A DNA stretch of 24,865 bases from a virus: positions 1-24,865 of the IMG/VR virus record IMGVR_UViG_3300017917_000682; one strand, 5' to 3'. Below the pieces are notes generated by a model that saw nothing but the letters and a program-made list of their open reading frames with translations, ran no database searches and was not told where the DNA came from. The position numbers were made by a program, and so were the translations under genes. Each line of letters opens with the position of its first letter. Positions within the stretch are counted from its first letter, which is position 1. Shown here piece after piece: positions 4,472 to 24,063 of this stretch.

Positions 4472-5326
4472 TTAGAATATATACCGGATACCTGCGGGAT
4501 TAAAGTATTCACTGTACAGACTGGTGAACTCATGGATCATCTGTTTCTTCAGCTGCCACTTGTAACGGATGTTATCAGGGGCGTAATGGGAGTCTTTAGA
4601 TTCCTGTATATCAGGACGCCATAATAGATCCCTTACCGGCTGGCTGTTACGCTCATGCTGGTGAATGTTATGGGTCAAGAATATACATTCACTCTTGGTT
4701 TCTATACCTGCAGCTTTGATCTCTTTAAAGAGCTTACGGTATTCATCCAACCATCCGTCTGTATAGATGATTGGGGAGAAGTTGATGTGTACCTCCATGT
4801 GATCTTGTAACCTAGGTATACTCCATATACGTTCTTCTATGGTGTCTGTATTGGGCTCTAGTACATCAGAGTATTTCTGAGGCATCAGGCTTACGCGTAT
4901 GCGGTGCTTGTCTGGAACCAAACAGTAGACAGCCGGGTTAAACATCGTGGGATACTTGGTGGCAAACGTACTCTTGGCCATAGAGTCTTTGTACGAGAAG
5001 TAATCAAAGACCTCTTGCCAGTTGTAGTGTTTGGTCATCAGGGCAACGTCTGTACTACAGCCAATATCTATAACGTAGTACTTATCATCACACTGGTTGG
5101 GTGTTTTAGGCCAGTGTTGCCGGCCCACCCATTCATTAATAGAATGTAGAATATCAGATGTATTCTCGTTTATATACACCTTGTCATGGTTGTACCGTCC
5201 TACATAACAGTAGGATTTCATACAGCCACCAAGGCACCCGTAAATGAAGTTTGGGCTAACTGCATCCGAACTTCTTCCATTCTCTCGGGTGATAAGAGTT
5301 TTAGTTTTCTGTGGGATCATTTTCAT
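4472..5326 (-). CDS. Spore photoproduct lyase-like radical SAM protein
   Basis: A 284-residue protein resembling the spore-photoproduct-lyase branch of radical SAM enzymes, which use a 4Fe-4S cluster and S-adenosylmethionine to make a deoxyadenosyl radical and, in the classical enzyme, repair UV-damaged thymine dimers. The likely cluster ligands are C31, C35 and C40 in YGCLGGCMKSYCYVGR, a CX3CX4C spacing one residue longer at the end than the usual CX3CX2Y/FC pattern. A later DIGCSTDVALM block resembles the SAM-binding region. The start is the ATG at 5326; an upstream TTG at 5332 is less likely. It overlaps the dNMP kinase gene by 26 nt. DNA repair or modification of a pyrimidine base is plausible given the ThyX/dNMP kinase neighbours, but the substrate is inferred. 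Confidence 0.75.
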   Translation of the reverse strand: MKMIPQKTKTLITRENGRSSDAVSPNFIYGCLGGCMKSYCYVGRYNHDKVYINENTSDILHSINEWVGRQHWPKTPNQCDDKYYVIDIGCSTDVALMTKHYNWQEVFDYFSYKDSMAKSTFATKYPTMFNPAVYCLVPDKHRIRVSLMPQKYSDVLEPNTDTIEERIWSIPRLQDHMEVHINFSPIIYTDGWLDEYRKLFKEIKAAGIETKSECIFLTHNIHQHERNSQPVRDLLWRPDIQESKDSHYAPDNIRYKWQLKKQMIHEFTSLYSEYFNPAGIRYIF

Positions 5327-6119
5327 GTACAAGGATTCCAGCTTGAGACAATACTTCTCTGGTCATGTTTACTAGATCTTCCAGACTTCCGTCATTATTA
5401 ATGACATAGTCAAAGTCATAGTCATCCAGCCCCACTTCAGATGCGTGACTGTTAACAGGTTTTACACCAGGGCGTTCAACGCGTATGAGGATACCGCCAG
5501 CTTTCTTAATAGCTTTTGCTTCATTAGGAAATCGGGTGTCTGTAATGATCCAGTTGTCACAGTCCCATCCACCGGGTGCACGGTCTGCTGGTACACATTT
5601 GTAGTCAGCCATAAGAGCGTTCACCCATACATTAGTATGAAGTCCTTCACGCAGACCATCTGTACCTAGCTTTTGTAAGAAGTCTCGTACACTTGTTTGT
5701 TGCATCTCAACTACATATTCCATTCTGAATACACCGTATGCATTAACTAAATGTGGTATATCAGCTTCAGCTTCTTCTTTGGAACTATATCTTCCTTTTT
5801 TAAACATAAGTTTACCATTACTGATAACTGATATAGTCCAGAAGTCCCACTCAGGACCAAGGTTGGTCTTCTTAAACTCCTGGTCTTCAAACCTGCTGAA
5901 GTGTACGCCAAGAATTATAGAAGCTACTTGCTTTAGTTTACCAGCCCACTTCTTGATTTCCCAGTCAGAATAGTACTCAAGCTTGTGATCATACTTTTGT
6001 TTGTCACTTAGGATATCTTCTATAGGTGTATCCTGTAGTTGTGGACAGTTTAGATACTGAATGATAGTACCCACTGTATCTTTTCCGGATCCTGCATATC
6101 CGTTAATACCTATAATCAT
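5301..6119 (-). CDS. Deoxynucleoside monophosphate kinase
   Basis: A P-loop kinase opening MIIGINGYAGSGKDT (Walker A residues 7-15), with the lid/substrate region FLQKLGTDGLREGLHTNVW and the conserved IITDTRFPNEAKAI, as in T4 gp1-type dNMP kinases. It would phosphorylate dNMPs, including the dTMP made by ThyX, to dNDPs for phage DNA synthesis in the cytoplasm. At 272 residues it is slightly longer than typical because of an insertion at about residues 85-125 (WDFWTISVISNGKLMFKKGR). The start ATG overlaps the upstream stop by one base (TAATG). The C-terminus has an acidic SHASEVGLDDYDFDYVINND block common to the family. Confidence 0.88.
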   Translation of the reverse strand: MIIGINGYAGSGKDTVGTIIQYLNCPQLQDTPIEDILSDKQKYDHKLEYYSDWEIKKWAGKLKQVASIILGVHFSRFEDQEFKKTNLGPEWDFWTISVISNGKLMFKKGRYSSKEEAEADIPHLVNAYGVFRMEYVVEMQQTSVRDFLQKLGTDGLREGLHTNVWVNALMADYKCVPADRAPGGWDCDNWIITDTRFPNEAKAIKKAGGILIRVERPGVKPVNSHASEVGLDDYDFDYVINNDGSLEDLVNMTREVLSQAGILVHENDPTEN

Positions 6120-7682: not shown

Positions 7683-9620
7683 TTAAAAAAGTGATAGTTG
7701 TGTAAATGACTTATGTTTGACTTTCTCTATCTGCTCAATCTGTTTATAGATCTCTTCCAGATAGTACTGTCGGTTGATATTATACGCTTCAAAAGGTGTG
7801 TTCGGATCTAGTTTGTTCACTACTGTCTGTAGCCACTGACCCGACTCTACTTGGATTTCACGACCATCTTTGTGACATTTAACCAGTTTACTGCCGTCAT
7901 TGGACACGTAATACCTAACGATCTTCTGAAGTTTCTTTACCTGAAGCTGTTGGTTTTCTACACCGCGGGACTCATAGTACCATCCTGCTCTGGCTTTAAC
8001 ACCAGCACAGTAGTCTGCTATCTCCTGGTTCTGATCCAGGAAGTCTTCTGGATCTACACCATTAACAAAGTAGGCATAGATAGCCTTGGGAATGATCAGG
8101 AAGCTTTTGTTCTTATGGAAGACAGCAACCTTCTTGTTAGCCAGGTCTTCCCATTCAAACGCACCCTTGCATTTTACCTTGTCTTTCTGGTTGATAGCAA
8201 TGTAGTTGTTGACGTCACGGATGATCATTTTCTTGTACTGGTCATGCTCCAGGCTGAGCTGGGTCATCTGCTCCCATCTGGTACAGATATCCATGTATTT
8301 TCCTACAGCAGCTGAGGGGATCATGGTCTCCAAACCGTCTGTGTTTTGCATCAGTGGAATGGCATCCGGGATCTCCTCACAGATCATCTCATATAGCATT
8401 GACAGACTTAGCTGTCCGTTAATGGTGATCTGCATGGTCATCTGTGGATCATACAGGAAACTGTTCTCGTCACCAGTGAGACCGTAGGTAGAGTTTAAGA
8501 TTAATTTGTATACGTAGTTCTTAGGATCTGTTTTAGGGATCTTCTTACGTTCTTCAAATACCCACTCGTACAGCTCACAGAATTCCTTCTTAGGAAGGTG
8601 TGCTGGGTGAAAACCGTTCTTGATAGCCAGGTTAGGATAGAAACTGGTAACATCAGAGGTCATGATGGTCCATCCAGGTTTGGCTTCATATACACCTGCA
8701 GATGCAGCACCATGGATACCACCCAGTCCGTAGTCTGTTTTTACCCCCTTGTAGTTAATGGAATACTTAAACCCATCTTTAGTGGATATGATTACAGTTT
8801 TACGGAAGAAGTCCAGCACCTGTTGAAACTCCGGGGTCTGGAACTTGATATAATCAAGAATAAGATCTCCCAGTACAACATGTGTACGCGGAGTACGCAG
8901 CTGTTTGAGTTCAGCTTTAGGTATACCGGTTCTCTGTTGCAGGAAATACAGGAATAATTCCTTGGAAATCCTGGGCTCGGAAGCACTGTACAGATTGATC
9001 TTATATTCCCTAGTGAGACTTTGACGCAGAACGATCTGTTCCTTGCTATGTTCCAGGATCTTCTTTGTACTGAGGACGTCATTAAGGCAATACTGCACGG
9101 TCATTTTAAGCTGTTCATCTGTAGTGATAGGCTCATAATGCGGATGCGGCATCTCTTCAACGTTCTCCCAATCCATAGAATACTGGATCCACTTAAGACT
9201 ACTCATCTTGGCTTTGTTATCCCAGTGGTTCATCTTAAAGAGATCTATCTGACCAATCTGTAGTTTAAACTGCGGATAGTCTGGAAACTCTCCTCTGTCT
9301 GTACGGTTAACAGTTTTCTGTGCGTAGTCATAGATGGCAGCAAGAACCTGCTCAGTATTCATCTTTAACAGAAGGAGTTTGTTGTCCAGGATCCACTGAG
9401 TGATCTGGGCGTCAAACGCCAGTCCGTTATAGGAAATATGCCACTGATGGTTCTTTACGCAGCTCTCAAGAAAGTTGATGAATTTTAGAAGGTCATTACG
9501 GTCTTTGTGAATGACAAAGACGTGGCGTACACCATCGTCTTTATAGTGCTGGAATACTGCTACGAAACAGTTCACGATAGTTTCGTAGTCCATCACCCAA
9601 TGTGTTTGTTGGTTACTCAT
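7683..9620 (-). CDS. Family-B DNA polymerase with 3'-5' exonuclease
   Basis: The replicative polymerase, 645 residues. The proofreading domain comes first: ExoI D11-Y-E13, ExoII SYNGLAFD (N65, D70) and ExoIII YCLND (Y177, D181). The polymerase motifs follow: YGLGGIHGA near 297-305, motif A SDVTSFYP (D323), motif B KLILNSTYG (K372, Y379) and motif C QNTDGL (D428). In motif C the usual DTDS reads NTDG, so one of the two Asp is Asn; phage members with NTDG are known to me and are presumed active. The protein is short for family B but holds all essential parts. It lies downstream of an intrinsic terminator, so it either has its own promoter or is controlled by readthrough. Confidence 0.93.
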   Translation of the reverse strand: MSNQQTHWVMDYETIVNCFVAVFQHYKDDGVRHVFVIHKDRNDLLKFINFLESCVKNHQWHISYNGLAFDAQITQWILDNKLLLLKMNTEQVLAAIYDYAQKTVNRTDRGEFPDYPQFKLQIGQIDLFKMNHWDNKAKMSSLKWIQYSMDWENVEEMPHPHYEPITTDEQLKMTVQYCLNDVLSTKKILEHSKEQIVLRQSLTREYKINLYSASEPRISKELFLYFLQQRTGIPKAELKQLRTPRTHVVLGDLILDYIKFQTPEFQQVLDFFRKTVIISTKDGFKYSINYKGVKTDYGLGGIHGAASAGVYEAKPGWTIMTSDVTSFYPNLAIKNGFHPAHLPKKEFCELYEWVFEERKKIPKTDPKNYVYKLILNSTYGLTGDENSFLYDPQMTMQITINGQLSLSMLYEMICEEIPDAIPLMQNTDGLETMIPSAAVGKYMDICTRWEQMTQLSLEHDQYKKMIIRDVNNYIAINQKDKVKCKGAFEWEDLANKKVAVFHKNKSFLIIPKAIYAYFVNGVDPEDFLDQNQEIADYCAGVKARAGWYYESRGVENQQLQVKKLQKIVRYYVSNDGSKLVKCHKDGREIQVESGQWLQTVVNKLDPNTPFEAYNINRQYYLEEIYKQIEQIEKVKHKSFTQLSLF

Positions 9621-10140: not shown

Positions 10141-10160
10141 AGTTCTACAGATTAGTTCTA

Positions 10161-10193
10161 CAAATTTAAACTGTTTTCTTCAAGTTCTCCAAA
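10161..10193 (-). promoter_or_regulatory. Bacteroidota-type promoter for the 135-residue gene
   Basis: On the minus strand TTTG (10190-10193), 21 nt and TAAATTTG (10161-10168) match the Bacteroidota consensus TTTG-N19-21-TAnnTTTG at every fixed position. It overlaps the 3' end of the 186-residue gene; the -7 box ends 21 nt before the start codon at 10140, predicting a leader of about 15 nt. Confidence 0.72.
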
Positions 10194-12350: not shown

Positions 12351-12370
12351 GGACTTGTAGAATAGTTCTA

Positions 12371-12378
12371 CAAATCTA
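12371..12378 (-). promoter_or_regulatory. Candidate -7 box for the HNH gene
   Basis: TAGATTTG on the minus strand fits TAnnTTTG and ends 21 nt before the HNH start at 12350, the same distance as the stronger promoter upstream of 10140. The TTTGTAGA word occurs twice in tandem here (12367-12374 and 12375-12382). No good TTTG lies 19-21 nt upstream, so the call is tentative. Confidence 0.45.
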
Positions 12379-12396
12379 CAAATAAACTGTATAACA

Positions 12397-15425: not shown

Positions 15426-16487
15426 CTATTGATTTAATTCTGTTCCAATGGGAGCAAATCCTGTCCTAGGACCGCCACCGCTATTACTTCTTTGTGAACG
15501 TAATGTGTAGGCTCCATCAGGTCTGGTAGGTTGGAAAGGTGCCACCTCTACCATACGTTGATGTTTACCATCCATTTTCATGAACACTATGTTCTTTTTC
15601 TCATTACCGTTTCTCACTTTAAGCAGGTGCATGAAAACGTCATCTTCTTCCACTTCATACGCGTAAGGACCGTATGATTTAATATCTGCTTTCCAGGGTC
15701 GGGATAATACCACCACCATATCAGATCCTTGCATCAGGGCGTCACCACCAAAGATGTCGGAGCTGGTAGGGTAGTTACCGATAGTACCTGGGGTTTTACG
15801 AGTTGCCTCGTCTATAGATCTGTTCAACTGTGTTATCATGATGACAATGATGGGGATCTTCTTTTTGAGCATCATTAGCATTTCTGTAGTGTTATACAGA
15901 ACATCAAACTTATCCTTCTCATTGGTGCGTTTCTTGATCAGCCAGGAGTGGTCTATAGTGACGATCATGGGTTTACTGCCTCCTTCTACATAAGCCTCTT
16001 TAATGGCTTCTTCCATTTCTGTATGGGTGAGGGAGTCTGAAATGATCTCACGTCTAAGTCCTTTGGATTCTAAGTACTGACAGTGGGCTATATAGTCTTT
16101 CATCTGGTCTACTATAAATTCGTCCAGTTGTCTTTCAGTACTTAGTACCACTTTATAGTCTTGAGCCACTTCTCCAGCAAACTGTCGTGCAGCATATTGT
16201 TCATCACCCATCTCAAACTGGAACTCCAGGATGTTAAACTCCTGGTCAGGATTGAGACGGTGTGCTTCCCGTAGCATATGGGATACGATCATGGTCTTAC
16301 CGGCACCTGGTCGGGCACCAATGGTGAGCATAGATCCCCACTCCAGACCGTCAATACCGGCTGAATTAAAACCAGGCCACGGGGTACGTAAACTTCTGAT
16401 ATCACCGTTACGTCTCTTCTCTATGTACTTTAAACCTTTGTTCAGTACATGGACATAACTCTTTCTTCCAAACTTTTTAGCGTCCAT
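15426..16487 (-). CDS. dnaB: DnaB-type replicative DNA helicase
   Basis: A RecA-fold helicase of 353 residues. Walker A is GARPGAGKT (57-65), Walker B is MIVTIDHSWL (174-183) with D179, and the ITQLNRSIDE segment (218-227) and the SDIFGGDALMQGSDMVVVL block are typical of DnaB. It lacks the N-terminal DnaG-binding domain of bacterial DnaB and so is shorter, as in many phage helicases. It would unwind the fork as a hexamer with the primase encoded at 12397-13374. The C-terminus is Gly/Ser/Asn-rich and disordered (QRSNSGGGPRTGF). The ATG follows a 4-nt gap from the upstream 67-residue gene. Confidence 0.92.
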   Translation of the reverse strand: MDAKKFGRKSYVHVLNKGLKYIEKRRNGDIRSLRTPWPGFNSAGIDGLEWGSMLTIGARPGAGKTMIVSHMLREAHRLNPDQEFNILEFQFEMGDEQYAARQFAGEVAQDYKVVLSTERQLDEFIVDQMKDYIAHCQYLESKGLRREIISDSLTHTEMEEAIKEAYVEGGSKPMIVTIDHSWLIKKRTNEKDKFDVLYNTTEMLMMLKKKIPIIVIMITQLNRSIDEATRKTPGTIGNYPTSSDIFGGDALMQGSDMVVVLSRPWKADIKSYGPYAYEVEEDDVFMHLLKVRNGNEKKNIVFMKMDGKHQRMVEVAPFQPTRPDGAYTLRSQRSNSGGGPRTGFAPIGTELNQ

Positions 16488-16491
16488 AGTT

Positions 16492-16695
16492 TTAATCTGT
16501 AAGGCCCATCATGGTTTTTACCTGCTTGATGCCGTCTATTTCACCTCTGAGAAAGGCTTGCTGCAGCAGGTTGTCTACGATCTTTAGAAGGATGGGGAGA
16601 TTAATAATCCGCATGTCTGTGGTGGGAGAGCCAGGCGGGATGGGGAGTTTTTCAAAGAGCTCACGAAGCTCTTTTTTCTGTTTTTCTGTTATCAT
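16492..16695 (-). CDS. Small helical protein upstream of helicase
   Basis: A 67-residue protein, two helices joined by a Pro/Gly turn (LFEKLPIPPGSPTTDMRIIN, then KIVDNLLQQAFLRGEIDGIK). It is the first gene after a promoter-like site and lies 4 nt upstream of the helicase, so it leads the helicase/Sak4/SSB transcript. A helicase-loading or regulatory role would suit the position, but nothing in the sequence proves it. Confidence 0.7.
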   Translation of the reverse strand: MITEKQKKELRELFEKLPIPPGSPTTDMRIINLPILLKIVDNLLQQAFLRGEIDGIKQVKTMMGLTD

Positions 16696-16717
16696 GGGGT
16701 TTGAATTTTGAAGGGTG

Positions 16718-16749
16718 TAAATTTAGAGAACTAACTGTAGAACTCCAAA
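16718..16749 (-). promoter_or_regulatory. Candidate Bacteroidota-type promoter for the helicase operon
   Basis: On the minus strand TTTG (16746-16749), 20 nt and TAAATTTA (16718-16725) fit TTTG-N19-21-TAnnTTTG with the last base changed. The -7 box ends 23 nt before the start at 16695. Both this site and the one at 10161-10193 have TTTGGAG as upstream element. Confidence 0.6.
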
Positions 16750-16767
16750 TAAATCTACAAAATATTT

Positions 16768-17349
16768 TTAGCTTTCTTGCGTAGCTATTTCTGGATTATC
16801 CAGGATCATCTGACAGTAGTCTGCCAGGAGGGAGCGGTTGGCTTTAGTAAACGTATCCGTACGTTGAATGAAATAAGAACTCGTGGTAATAAACTCCATG
16901 TTCTCTTTACTCTTGGTATAGATGTAATAGTCTGTGGCATCCAATACCAGATCCCAGTCATATTCAGGATAGGTTTTAAAGAACCATACAAACTTCTCTT
17001 TAAGTTCCTGAACCGTCTGCCTAAGTAGTCCCACTTTGGGTACCCGTTTGGCAGGAAACATTTCTCTGTAAGTGGTAATGTGTGATAGAGCGTCAGTACC
17101 AAGCAGTTCTGAAGCTACCTTCTTTTTGGTCTTGACCAATAGGGATTCAAACTCGTCCAGTATGAACACGGCACCTGGTGTCAGGTTACCGTTACTGTCA
17201 ATGTGTCCCCGGATAACGGCAGCCTGCTTTTCCTGTTCTTCGTTTATAATACTGGTGGGGCGGATCTTATGCCTGCAGCAATCAAGGAAGTACAGCTGGT
17301 TCGGGCTGATATTGTACTTGATCAAAGAGGTCCAAAGCTGATGACTCAT
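16768..17349 (-). CDS. Replication-region protein of unknown function
   Basis: A 193-residue protein overlapping the DnaA-like gene by 68 nt. The N-terminus (NISPNQLYFLDCCRHKIRPT) reads like a winged-helix or replication-initiator fold. The C-terminal half has an aromatic block (KFVWFFKTYPEYDWDLVLDA, DYYIYTKSKENMEFITTS) that I recall from unnamed proteins of other Bacteroidota phages. There is no membrane span and no catalytic motif. Its place between the DnaA-domain protein and the helicase suggests initiation or helicase loading; this is inference. The N-terminal sequence looks genuine, so the overlap is probably real. Confidence 0.72.
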   Translation of the reverse strand: MSHQLWTSLIKYNISPNQLYFLDCCRHKIRPTSIINEEQEKQAAVIRGHIDSNGNLTPGAVFILDEFESLLVKTKKKVASELLGTDALSHITTYREMFPAKRVPKVGLLRQTVQELKEKFVWFFKTYPEYDWDLVLDATDYYIYTKSKENMEFITTSSYFIQRTDTFTKANRSLLADYCQMILDNPEIATQES

Positions 17350-17782
17350 GGTGACTTTTTATGGTTTTTAGGATACGTGCATACTTGGTCTGGAAGTTCT
17401 CATCAGTTTCCAGCAGGTTCTTACAAGTATGAATGTTGTGAATGACGGTGGTGTGATCACGGTTACCTAAGAATTGGCCAATGATGACCAGGTTGTATCC
17501 CATCTGACGGGCCATGAAACAGAACATACTGCGGAGTTCCACCAGGGGACGGTGTCTGCACTTGCTGGACAAGGGTAAGGGTGAACCGCACCTTTCTGGT
17601 AAGAAATCCTGGAAGTATATCTCCAGTTCATCCAAGGTCATCATGGGAATATAATCATCAGAGTCTTTGTGGTAGACCCTGGTAAGGACAACAGGGATGT
17701 ACCCTATCTTTTCATGAAATGTTCTTTTAAACTGTTCTACCATCCGCTTTTCCAGCATGATGGAATATGATTGTGTATCCAT
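17282..17782 (-). CDS. Stand-alone DnaA domain IV (origin-binding) protein
   Basis: A 166-residue protein whose C-terminal half is the DnaA DNA-binding domain: a basic region KCRHRPLVELRSMFCFMARQ (about 74-93), then IGQFLGNRDHTTVIHNIHTC (101-120), containing the DnaA signature GxRDHTTV. In bacterial DnaA this domain reads the DnaA box. Here there is no AAA+ ATPase domain; the first about 65 residues are of unknown fold and the last 20 are acidic/Pro-rich. The gene is the first of the leftward replication block and starts at the divergent intergenic region, so it may bind the phage origin, recruit host DnaA or block the host origin. A TATATTTG -7-like box lies 22 nt upstream of its start. Confidence 0.88.
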   Translation of the reverse strand: MDTQSYSIMLEKRMVEQFKRTFHEKIGYIPVVLTRVYHKDSDDYIPMMTLDELEIYFQDFLPERCGSPLPLSSKCRHRPLVELRSMFCFMARQMGYNLVIIGQFLGNRDHTTVIHNIHTCKNLLETDENFQTKYARILKTIKSHHESSALDLFDQVQYQPEPAVLP

Positions 17783-17895
17783 AAATCTCCGAAGTTTATT
17801 CTACAAATATAGGTTAGTTCTACAATTATTCGTATATTATATTGTAGAGTTTGGAATATTTCTACATATAGGAAGTTTATATAAATATTTATACA
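17783..17895. promoter_or_regulatory. AT-rich divergent intergenic region, candidate control region or origin
   Basis: This 113-nt stretch separates all leftward genes from all rightward genes. It is very AT-rich, holds several TCTACA/TGTAGA words (17800, 17819, 17843 and 17861 areas) in both orientations, and ends in an A/T run before the ATG at 17896. A TTTGGAA element at 17850-17855 with TTTATATA 22 nt downstream may be the rightward promoter. Location and composition would suit a replication origin near the DnaA-like gene, but no perfect DnaA box was found. Confidence 0.5.
17804..17811 (-). promoter_or_regulatory. Candidate -7 box for the DnaA-like gene
   Basis: TATATTTG on the minus strand fits the TAnnTTTG box exactly and ends 22 nt before the start codon at 17782, continuing into TAGAA as at 10161 and 12371. 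No TTTG lies at the expected 19-21 nt; the nearest TTG is 14 nt upstream. Confidence 0.5.
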
Positions 17896-18422: not shown

Positions 18423-19247
18423 ATGGGAGCTAAGATCACTACTATAGACAACCTGTTTACCAAACTACCTAACGTTAGATGGGTAAACCTGAATGGTAAT
18501 AAACTTACCAGCTTGAACGCCAAGAACCACCCAAAACTTAATGTATTGCGGGTGAACAAGAACCAGTTGACATCTTTACAGCTGGGTAACAATCCTTTGT
18601 TATACATTTTAACAGCTACTTATAATTCTAATCTCCAGGAAGTGACCACAGAAGGTTCTCTGCCTATATTAGGATCATTTGACGCTTTTAATTCTGCTAT
18701 CAAAAAGGTATCTAACCTGGGCACCCCGTCCACTTTGATGTTTAGTGCCAAGGGGACAATGACGGAAGCTATCAGTTTCACTGCAAACCCTAACCTGTTT
18801 GATGTACGTATCTATGAAGCCACCGGGTTATCGTTTACAAACTACGACACTAACAACCTGAACTTCTTGGTGTTACAGAGTAATACGTTTACTAGTCAGC
18901 TTGATATCAGCAAGTTTACATCGCTCAAATATTTAACTCTCAGCAGCACTAACCAGACTTCTGTATCACTTAATAGTTCTAACCTGGAGTACGTTTATGT
19001 TGGCTTTAATCCTCTGACTAGTGTGACAATTGCACCAGCTGCACTTACTAAACTGGATCAAATAACTTTCTATGACTGTGGTTTGACCGCGTCTGTGGTG
19101 GATTCTATCCTTGTAAGTATGGCTAACACTGCGGTTACAAACGGGTTCATTGATTTATCAGGTGCGTCTAACGCTGCTCCCACTGCTACAGGATTAGCAG
19201 CTAAGTCAACACTTCAAGGTAAAGGTTGGTTAGTAGTTCATAAGTAA
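18423..19247 (+). CDS. Leucine-rich-repeat surface protein
   Basis: A 274-residue protein of irregular leucine-rich repeats of about 20-22 residues (VRWVNLNGNKLTSLNA, LNVLRVNKNQLTSLQLGNN, LKYLTLSSTNQTSVSLN, LEYVYVGFNPLTSVTI). The C-terminus closes with a capping region (FYDCGLTASVVDSILVSMA) and a short tail ending GWLVVHK, seen in phage LRR proteins of Bacteroidota. Such solenoids bind proteins or glycans and would suit host recognition. There is no signal peptide. The start ATG lies 2 nt after the PKD gene stop, and the two read like one protein cut in two. Ser/Thr/Asn-rich composition matches the PKD neighbour. Confidence 0.8.
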   Translation: MGAKITTIDNLFTKLPNVRWVNLNGNKLTSLNAKNHPKLNVLRVNKNQLTSLQLGNNPLLYILTATYNSNLQEVTTEGSLPILGSFDAFNSAIKKVSNLGTPSTLMFSAKGTMTEAISFTANPNLFDVRIYEATGLSFTNYDTNNLNFLVLQSNTFTSQLDISKFTSLKYLTLSSTNQTSVSLNSSNLEYVYVGFNPLTSVTIAPAALTKLDQITFYDCGLTASVVDSILVSMANTAVTNGFIDLSGASNAAPTATGLAAKSTLQGKGWLVVHK

Positions 19248-21604: not shown

Positions 21605-22252
21605 ATGAGAGTGTATGCAATGAATGCCTACACCTGGATGAAGGAAAGGATTGCAATGTTGTTTGTAATCCTTGTTCTTATCTGGACTATGGCAGCTTTA
21701 AGTTTTCAGGTGTTCATGGTATACCTGGAGTTTTCTGGTAAAGACCAGACTATTAAAGAGATCGTTGACTGGTTCAACGTTACGTTTGATGGTACCTGGA
21801 AGAATAACCCAAAGAACATATGGTATGAAGAACCCAAGGTTATTCATGTCACCAGTGTTTCTAATAAGGTGGTAGTAGGTTCAGTTGCCGGTAACCGGAA
21901 TATAGAGTTTGGTGTAAAGAACATGATAGAGGAAGTGCTGCAGGAGAAAGAATATGAGCTGGATACAACAGCCAAACTAAAACTGTCTGCACAGATTGTC
22001 TATCTGGATGTTCTTAAAACCCAGTCCAGTTTTTCCGTACTGCATAAGAATAAAGAATCTGTAGTGATCAGACTACAGGGTCAGCTCTTTGAAAATAATA
22101 AGCTTAAGAAGAAAGCTACAGTGGAAGAATCTGCTGATGAGGTGAGTATGAGCACGCTCCTGATTGACCAGGGAGGTAAGTTCAACCAACAGAATCTGAG
22201 TTCTGCATTGAAGAAAGCTTCTAGTTCACTTGTAAACAAACTAATAGAATGA
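21605..22252 (+). CDS. Membrane-anchored protein of unknown function
   Basis: A 215-residue protein with one N-terminal span (IAMLFVILVLIWTMAALSFQ, about 17-36) and a soluble part of mixed alpha/beta type. Helical segments such as EFGVKNMIEEVLQEKEYELD alternate with strands (LSAQIVYLDVL, SVVIRLQGQLFE). The GGKFNQQNLSSALKKASSSL end is like secreted lipoprotein-assembly domains (CsgG/LptE-like folds) and like phage proteins I recall from marine Bacteroidota, but no family can be named. The stop makes an ATGA overlap with the signal-peptide protein downstream, so the two belong together. Confidence 0.72.
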   Translation: MRVYAMNAYTWMKERIAMLFVILVLIWTMAALSFQVFMVYLEFSGKDQTIKEIVDWFNVTFDGTWKNNPKNIWYEEPKVIHVTSVSNKVVVGSVAGNRNIEFGVKNMIEEVLQEKEYELDTTAKLKLSAQIVYLDVLKTQSSFSVLHKNKESVVIRLQGQLFENNKLKKKATVEESADEVSMSTLLIDQGGKFNQQNLSSALKKASSSLVNKLIE

Positions 22253-24063
22253 GAATACTCTTAGTTATATCCGTACTTCTTTTAACTGTTGGAGCTTACG
22301 CCCAGAACCCTATTAAGTTCAGGCTAAGCTCTGAAGTTTTTACAGAGCCTAAGGACACTGTAAAGTTTAACATTAATGGTCAGAACCTGAAGAAGGGTGA
22401 CCAGTTTGTAATGTACATTTCTGGTGCCGGTAATGGTAACACTACCACCCGCCAGCTGCTGTTTGATTTACAGTATGACAACAACGCTCTCACTTTAAAT
22501 AGTATAAACAACACTGGTACGGGTGGTAATGGTGGGATACTTCCCCAGGGATCTAACGCCCAGGAATCTTTGTTTCAGTATCCAGGATATTCTTTTGCCA
22601 GAAATAGTAATAACACTACTAGTAATGGTACAACTAACTATCAGTTTGCCCAGTATCAGTATGTAGCAGGCGGACCATCTACTATTGTCAGATATAATCT
22701 GACCTGGTCTGGTACCGCTGGTATGCCTTATGGAGGATACTGGGGATTTATTAAGCTGGTATTTACAGTGAAGTCTTCTTTAGTAGGGTTTAACGTAAGT
22801 CCTGTTCAGCTAAACTTTGTAGCTGGTTGGAACGGTCAGGGAGTTTTAGATCCCACCTTTCAGGAGAACCCTCTTCAGACTCAGATCTACCTTAATCCAA
22901 ACTTTGATTCTTACGTAAACGCCAAGGTGGATATCAATCAGAATCTAACCAGTATAGCTCCAATGAAGGTGTTATTCATGGATACCACTACAAAGGTGGG
23001 GGATCTGTTTGATATAACAACAACTGGTCAGGTGAATGTAGATAACACCAAGCTTAAACCTAATACAGTGTATAGAGTGCTGGCTATGGTGAATATGGAT
23101 AAGCTTTATCAGTTATACAACAGTGCTGTCACTGTATCAGACTTTACCGGCCCGCAAAATGAGTTTGTAAAGACGGGGCTAGATGGTACACCTGCGTTAG
23201 TCAACATGACTACTGGTGCCAGTTTCCTGGCTGCTGATATGAACAATGACAAGAAGTTTGATGGTGGGGATCTGCCAAAACTTTTAGCAGCAGCTGTATC
23301 CCAGGATACATTGATTCAACTTCCTCAGGGATACACTCCTGGTACAAACGGCTTTATGTCTGTATGGACATTTAGAGATACGGCATTTAATAACATGACA
23401 CCTAACTCATGGAAAACCGTAGATCCTGGTACAGGTGTTCTTTTTAAGACCGGAGCTATTGGTGAACACCTGCCGCTCAATCTGAAGTATTTGTTGTGGG
23501 GAGACGTTAACCGTTCCCATAGTTCTCAGGTGGTTCGTAATAACACCACTGTTGTGAGCAGTGCTCCTCCTTCATTGATTACGTCTGGTACCATGACCAA
23601 TTCTATGAACACTGGAGTAAACTTTGGCGGTGTCATGAATGAAGTGCAGACTATAGAAGTAAATCTGAATAATGTAACGGTTACCTCTAATACTATCAAT
23701 ATTCCTGTAAGTGTAGATACAAAAGGTGTAAACCTTTCTGCTTTACAGTTCGAGTTCCAGTATGATCCTACTAAGATAAAGTTTGAGGAACTGAAACTTA
23801 ACCTGCCAAATACCTGGTACACGTTTGTAAACAGTAAAACCGGCAAGGTGAAGTTCGGTGCTCTGGACAGAAGTGCGGAAAATCCGGTAAGTGGTGTGTT
23901 GACCCCGTTTACACTGAAGTTTTCTACCCTGGTACCAGGTGTAGATATTCTTTCTACAGTGAAGGTTACACCTACAATGGATGCCAGTGATAAGAACGGC
24001 AACCAGGTGGGTATTACTCTTAACACCACAACAATTAGATTAACTGGTTATAATAACTTCTAA
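22249..24063 (+). CDS. Secreted protein with dockerin-like loops and cohesin-like domain
   Basis: A 604-residue protein beginning with a signal peptide (MRILLVISVLLLTVGAYA, predicted cleavage after Ala18). Residues 20-300 are beta-rich, Asn/Gly/Thr-rich and of unknown fold. At about 329-340, ADMNNDKKFDGGDL has the calcium-loop spacing D-x-N-x-D-x6-D of dockerins, and GDVNRSHSS near 418 is a second, shorter dockerin-like loop. From about 480 to 600 (INIPVSVDTKGVNLSALQFE, FQYDPTKIKFEELKL, VSGVLTPFTLKFS) the sequence resembles a cohesin-type beta-sandwich. It probably acts outside the cytoplasm as an assembly or surface-binding protein, possibly on the virion or on infected cells. A phage gene with both cohesin-like and dockerin-like parts is unusual. 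It lacks a membrane anchor. Confidence 0.78.
   Translation: MRILLVISVLLLTVGAYAQNPIKFRLSSEVFTEPKDTVKFNINGQNLKKGDQFVMYISGAGNGNTTTRQLLFDLQYDNNALTLNSINNTGTGGNGGILPQGSNAQESLFQYPGYSFARNSNNTTSNGTTNYQFAQYQYVAGGPSTIVRYNLTWSGTAGMPYGGYWGFIKLVFTVKSSLVGFNVSPVQLNFVAGWNGQGVLDPTFQENPLQTQIYLNPNFDSYVNAKVDINQNLTSIAPMKVLFMDTTTKVGDLFDITTTGQVNVDNTKLKPNTVYRVLAMVNMDKLYQLYNSAVTVSDFTGPQNEFVKTGLDGTPALVNMTTGASFLAADMNNDKKFDGGDLPKLLAAAVSQDTLIQLPQGYTPGTNGFMSVWTFRDTAFNNMTPNSWKTVDPGTGVLFKTGAIGEHLPLNLKYLLWGDVNRSHSSQVVRNNTTVVSSAPPSLITSGTMTNSMNTGVNFGGVMNEVQTIEVNLNNVTVTSNTINIPVSVDTKGVNLSALQFEFQYDPTKIKFEELKLNLPNTWYTFVNSKTGKVKFGALDRSAENPVSGVLTPFTLKFSTLVPGVDILSTVKVTPTMDASDKNGNQVGITLNTTTIRLTGYNNF

Follow-up and report, generated by a model that had tools for sequence, protein, structure and literature searches.

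DnaA is the near-universal bacterial initiator, and the locus described here raises the question of what role its box-reading domain alone could have as a conserved phage gene. The phage proteins known to act on DnaA are unrelated to DnaA. The window, which is the whole stretch of 24,865 nucleotides analyzed here (IMG/VR virus record IMGVR_UViG_3300017917_000682), contains such a gene, designated DnaA-IV. A first-pass annotation had proposed that its product could mark the phage origin, recruit host DnaA or helicase, or occupy host DnaA boxes and stop host replication. The reading that we prefer, at a probability of roughly 0.45, is by analogy with GafY and would make the protein a sequence-specific transcription regulator built from DnaA domain IV. 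The gene is a ready probe of box competition versus action as a transcription factor, as in gene transfer agents (GTAs), and its natural loss variants supply a built-in comparison. The features of the operon discussed below are as follows.

17282..17782 (-): standalone DnaA domain IV gene; ORF of 166 aa with an ATG start
17429..17572 (-): codons of the Bac_DnaA_C match (PF08299 profile search), containing the invariant DNA-contact residues
16768..17349 (-): 193-aa partner gene, conserved beside DnaA-IV in orthologous loci
16736..16759 (+): second inverted repeat TGTAG-N14-CTACA, upstream of the 67-aa gene
16492..16695 (-): 67-aa gene lying behind the partner gene and ahead of the helicase gene, conserved in many relatives
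15426..16487 (-): DnaB-like replicative helicase of 353 aa, same operon (Pfam DnaB_C, PHROG 19)

A DnaA domain IV without the ATPase

By sequence and predicted fold, the 166-aa protein carries a genuine DnaA domain IV. Its residues 71-118 matched Bac_DnaA_C (PF08299) in Pfam with 42.9 bits against a cut-off of 31.5 (E 5e-11), the same family was matched by all 32 orthologs scanned, and phmmer matched the protein to 1j1v, a crystal structure of DnaA domain IV with DNA (E 4e-6). The AlphaFold model, built with the 32 orthologs (mean pLDDT 80), predicted a long N-terminal helix at residues 3-26, a linker of low confidence, domain IV at about residues 71-143, and a disordered tail at residues 147-166. 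Foldseek again placed 1j1v first for this model (E 4e-4, TMt 0.85), with other DnaA structures next.

The description of the protein in the first-pass annotation as a DnaA box-binding domain without an ATPase was confirmed by the Pfam and 1j1v matches and by a search of the window and of 14 related contigs, 60-130 kb long, that gave no match to the DnaA AAA+ domain (PF00308). NCBIfam DnaA models aligned to the protein solely at their C-terminal end, and the DnaA equivalog model TIGR00362 gave 45 bits against a cut-off of 343.9, which places the protein outside the equivalog with its ATPase domain III and Walker motifs. What the protein has in common with DnaA is a domain IV that carries the DnaA-box contact residues, with the Pfam score above cut-off and those residues invariant. 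No PHROG family was found for the window's 166-aa protein, and an unnamed PHROG was matched weakly by 4 of the 32 orthologs.

In the alignment of the 32 orthologs (E. coli DnaA numbering), R399, R401, R407, D433, H434, T435 and T436 were invariant and H439 was retained in 84%, while Q408 and K443 had drifted. We take D433, H434 and R407 to be DNA-contact positions in 1j1v. T435 touches bases and R399 occupies the minor groove of DNA (PMC9638019). The invariance of the contact residues while Q408 and K443 drift indicates selection for base reading; this property is strongly constrained, and DnaA-box recognition by the 166-aa protein is therefore plausible. In three distant members of the family (L243, L257 and L280) D433 is replaced by H, giving HHTT instead of DHTT, a candidate for a possible shift in DNA specificity.

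Distribution and natural loss of the gene

A direct query of IMG/VR with the 166-aa protein returned no match, and relatives were collected by a helicase-based scan followed by a second scan using the neighbouring gene. The helicase-based scan gave 80 related loci, 64 of which carried an ortholog in the same position, and the neighbouring-gene scan added 42 ortholog-bearing contigs, bringing the total to 106 related IMG/VR contigs. The order of DnaA-IV, the 193-aa gene, often a small gene, and the DnaB-like helicase gene was retained in about 100 contigs. The same position in 106 contigs, the overlap with the next gene and the site upstream of the helicase gene together indicate that the gene is real.

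Eleven contigs, all of them partial, contained the 193-aa gene and the helicase gene with no DnaA-IV gene ahead of them (examples are L083, L085, L088-L090, L212, L213, L215, L217, L231 and L232). In five of these loci that were read in detail, the 193-aa gene lies directly behind the divergent region, and the 57-kb contig of L083 had no Bac_DnaA_C match anywhere. Since the DnaA-IV gene is present in more distant relatives, its absence from the 11 contigs represents loss; judged from these partial contigs, the gene appears to be dispensable in the relatives concerned. The first-pass annotation had named loss of the gene in close relatives without effect on replication as evidence against its proposals, and the first part of this was observed in the 11 helicase-bearing relatives that lack it.

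The nearest cellular matches were full-length DnaA proteins of Bacteroidota, mostly of Chitinophagaceae, the likely host group. The phage family, which is widespread and whose promoters have the Bacteroidota -7 element, probably infects Bacteroidota. In a tree of the domain, which with about 70 residues has little resolution, the window's phage family came out as a single, moderately supported group (87/64) and the proteins of Microcystis phages formed a separate clade (98/93), which suggests that phage DnaA-IV genes arose independently at least twice. Full-length DnaA in records labeled as phage (MT837016 and others) was set aside as complete DnaA, probably bacterial sequence. Domain IV lacking the ATPase is already known from GafY/GafA, from transposases and from single annotations in a few phages; no description of a large phage family with DnaA-IV beside a helicase gene was found in the open-licence papers searched.

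The replication operon and the 193-aa partner

The minus-strand arm reads DnaA-IV, the 193-aa gene, the 67-aa gene, the DnaB-like helicase, a Sak4-like protein, primase and PolB. This order and the AT-rich, 113-bp region ahead of it bear out the earlier placement of DnaA-IV as the first gene of a replication arm beside an AT-rich divergent region. In the window and in many relatives, 68 nt are shared between the DnaA-IV gene and the 193-aa gene, which is strongly conserved (mean column identity 67%). No convincing family was found for it in Pfam or NCBIfam, and Foldseek gave a weak similarity to MarR-like folds with non-significant matches. A function of the partner as helicase loader was considered and rejected, having neither family nor fold support, and no DnaC/IstB-type loader scored above cut-off. 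PolB (7683-9620, -) terminates in FTQLSLF, a typical sliding-clamp-binding motif, and this ending suggests use of the host clamp.

DnaA boxes in the phage genomes

No perfect DnaA box is present within the window, and boxes with one mismatch are rarer there than in shuffled sequences (20 versus 31.7). The first-pass annotation had advised a search for the binding motif in the divergent region (17783-17895), and that search gave no DnaA box with one mismatch allowed. Six long contigs (115-130 kb) had 2-11 DnaA boxes apiece and no cluster.

The family's genomes show no excess of perfect DnaA boxes, yet those present are unusually often intergenic. Four low-GC genomes have 38 boxes, of which 12 are intergenic (1.7 for permuted words; reached by 0 of 300). 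The figure is 22 of 88 in 16 contigs (4.4; reached by 2 of 400) and 14 of 49 in seven mostly dissimilar contigs, a value that 0.24% of composition-matched words equalled. These statistics overstate the bias because related genomes share homologous sites and the box counts are thus non-independent. Among the genes preceded by an intergenic box are an exonuclease-like 438-aa gene and a 170-aa gene. In a low-GC sub-clade, the -7 element of the DnaA-IV gene's own promoter shares positions with a box (TGTGNATAA, in which the N position varies); this promoter box is lacking in the window's group and in more divergent relatives. One intergenic box remains in a contig without the gene (G012, 11721). 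A joint test of box loss and gene loss is limited by the longest gene-less contig, which at 57 kb stops short of two late-side boxes.

The divergent region and its promoters

The features of the divergent region and the intergenic occurrences of the word TTGTAGAAC are as follows.

17783..17895: AT-rich divergent region of 113 bp, between the DnaA-IV gene and the divergent gene
within 17783..17895: DnaA-IV promoter, with the Bacteroidota -7 element TATATTTG and then TAGAA
within 17783..17895: inverted repeat TGTAG-N14-CTACA
17829-17845: 17-mer TCTACAATATAATATAC, nearly invariant across the family (G001-G016)
17817..17825 (-): exact copy of TTGTAGAAC
17798-17806: one-mismatch copy of TTGTAGAAC, overlapping the -7 element
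10141-10165, 12351-12396, 16696-16767 and 17783-17895: examples of intergenic regions of the window with TTGTAGAAC

TAnnTTTG is the -7 element of Bacteroidota promoters, and the early promoters of the window's phage group contain it. Most long contigs have the 17-mer at two main sites separated by about 60-65 kb, each copy reading as GTATATTATATTGTAGA toward a late-side gene; it is probably a phage promoter, in the window that of the divergent gene. The gene-less relatives have no DnaA-IV promoter in the divergent region but retain the 17-mer, and with it the divergent promoter, as well as the greater part of the inverted repeat. The 17-mer and the repeat had been considered as sites for the DnaA-IV protein and were dropped as evidence on account of this retention.

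TTGTAGAAC is the dominant and most over-represented intergenic word in the window's phage group, with 21 matches versus 8.3 in shuffled sequences when one mismatch is allowed. It is strongly over-represented intergenically in the relatives of 40% GC, where early promoters have it at their -33 and -7 elements. As the DnaA-IV protein's own target it is unproven, being not over-represented in low-GC relatives that have the gene. If the protein is a regulator, intergenic TTATNCACA or TTGTAGAAC would be the candidate words at phage promoters.

Comparison with known systems

The closest parallels come from phage-derived elements: Caulobacter GafY (HdaB) and, in Rhodobacter capsulatus, the N-terminal part of GafA, both small, DNA-binding homologs of DnaA domain IV without the ATPase. 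GafY binds at GTA promoters and contacts RpoD (PMC9632790, PMC11150451). It is followed by its partner gene, GafZ, as DnaA-IV is followed by the 193-aa gene, whose product matched no known family in Pfam or NCBIfam. GafYZ drive GTA genes, whereas a regulatory role of the phage protein would be by analogy. GafA departs from DnaA at the base contacts (R399 corresponds to E8 and T435 to S43; PMC9638019), while the phage protein retains both.

With bacterial DnaA the phage protein shares the domain IV fold, the RDHTT motif and 41-47% identity over about 60 residues in many of the best matches, those of Chitinophagaceae being nearest; unlike DnaA, it has no domains I-III and no ATP binding, and it possesses an N-terminal helix and a tail of its own. 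Short proteins with Bac_DnaA_C above the Pfam cut-off are also found in the Microcystis phages Mae-JY35 (XAI96573.1) and Mvi-Yong1342-1 and in podovirus ctfjg026 (UOF82498.1). The Microcystis phage proteins belong to a clade apart from the window's family and the ctfjg026 protein is very divergent; in Mae-JY35, the standalone gene is close to the end of the early genes. RAYT/TnpA-REP transposases have also reused the domain apart from the ATPase, as a C-terminal Bac_DnaA_C (PMC6006769), but there it is fused to an HUH transposase and is neither standalone nor phage-encoded.

Possible roles of the DnaA-IV protein

Loss of the gene from a few close relatives makes a regulator likelier than an indispensable replication starter, and the intergenic box bias together with the GafY precedent makes a regulatory role at least as likely as the functions suggested in the first-pass annotation, among which transcription regulation did not figure. 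Dispensability, intergenic boxes, the lack of a box cluster and the analogy with GafY thus make regulation the best single reading. The protein, consisting of domain IV and a conserved N-terminal helix specific to the family, would be the first product of the early operon and would bind at phage promoters, its own included, either to DnaA boxes or to a site derived from them. It might adjust early or later phage transcription, possibly jointly with the overlapping 193-aa partner, by a mechanism like that of GafY, in which a domain IV homolog binds the promoter and contacts a sigma factor. Having no ATPase, it would not melt DNA at an origin as DnaA does. Against regulation stand the box-poor window, the lack of the promoter box in the window's group and in more divergent relatives, and the box that persists in a gene-less contig, which indicates that the boxes may serve host DnaA; the location in a replication operon suits a replication role equally well.

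That role would be an initiator that binds the phage origin and delivers the DnaB-like helicase via its N-terminal helix or the 193-aa partner, comparable to lambda O and P. We regard it as possible, though on the doubtful side. The leading position in the operon, the conserved order with the helicase gene and the 68-nt overlap with a conserved partner fit it, as does the fact that domain IV is the origin-binding module in DnaA itself. The site cluster expected of a lambda O-like protein failed to appear among canonical DnaA boxes, an altered site being conceivable, and with no boxes in the divergent region and the gene missing from 11 relatives the proposal of origin marking is weakened. The 11 relatives without the gene retain the partner and the helicase (a replacement elsewhere is possible, these contigs being partial), the overall GC-skew extreme is at another divergent region (gene orientation confounds the skew), and Mvi-Yong1342-1 has a separate O-like initiator in addition to its DnaA-IV gene.

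It is unlikely that the protein is instead directed at the host, occupying chromosomal DnaA boxes there and thereby blocking or misregulating initiation. The base-contact residues are retained although the window is poor in DnaA boxes, and the closest cellular relatives belong to the likely host group, the host itself being a predicted one. According to PMC9632790, overexpression of HdaB, as GafY was earlier named for its replication effects, altered chromosome replication in Caulobacter, but the same source attributes these effects to GTA induction. The dispensability of the gene in some relatives and the intergenic boxes, which suggest targets in the phage, also argue against it. A combined role, in which a domain captured from DnaA would take over the boxes of both host and phage, freeing host replication from its control and timing phage transcription, appears slightly less likely still. 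The least probable reading is a relic or moron that binds DNA with altered specificity and has little present role; the absence of the gene from one sub-clade and the change of D433 to H in a few divergent members are consistent with it, but 106 contigs retain the gene and the DNA-contact residues are invariant in the 32 aligned orthologs.

Other genes in the window

A gene with an endonuclease-like appearance (1029-1679, -) overlaps thyX (368-1069, -) by 41 nt, and its start nearly repeats the N-terminus of ThyX (NTVELLGWYGGDKEHAMS versus NSVELLGYYGGDTCHAMS); no Rfam intron was found. The window also encodes a spore photoproduct lyase-like protein (4472-5332, -), a leucine-rich-repeat-like protein (18423-19247, +) and a cohesin-domain-like protein (22249-24063, +).
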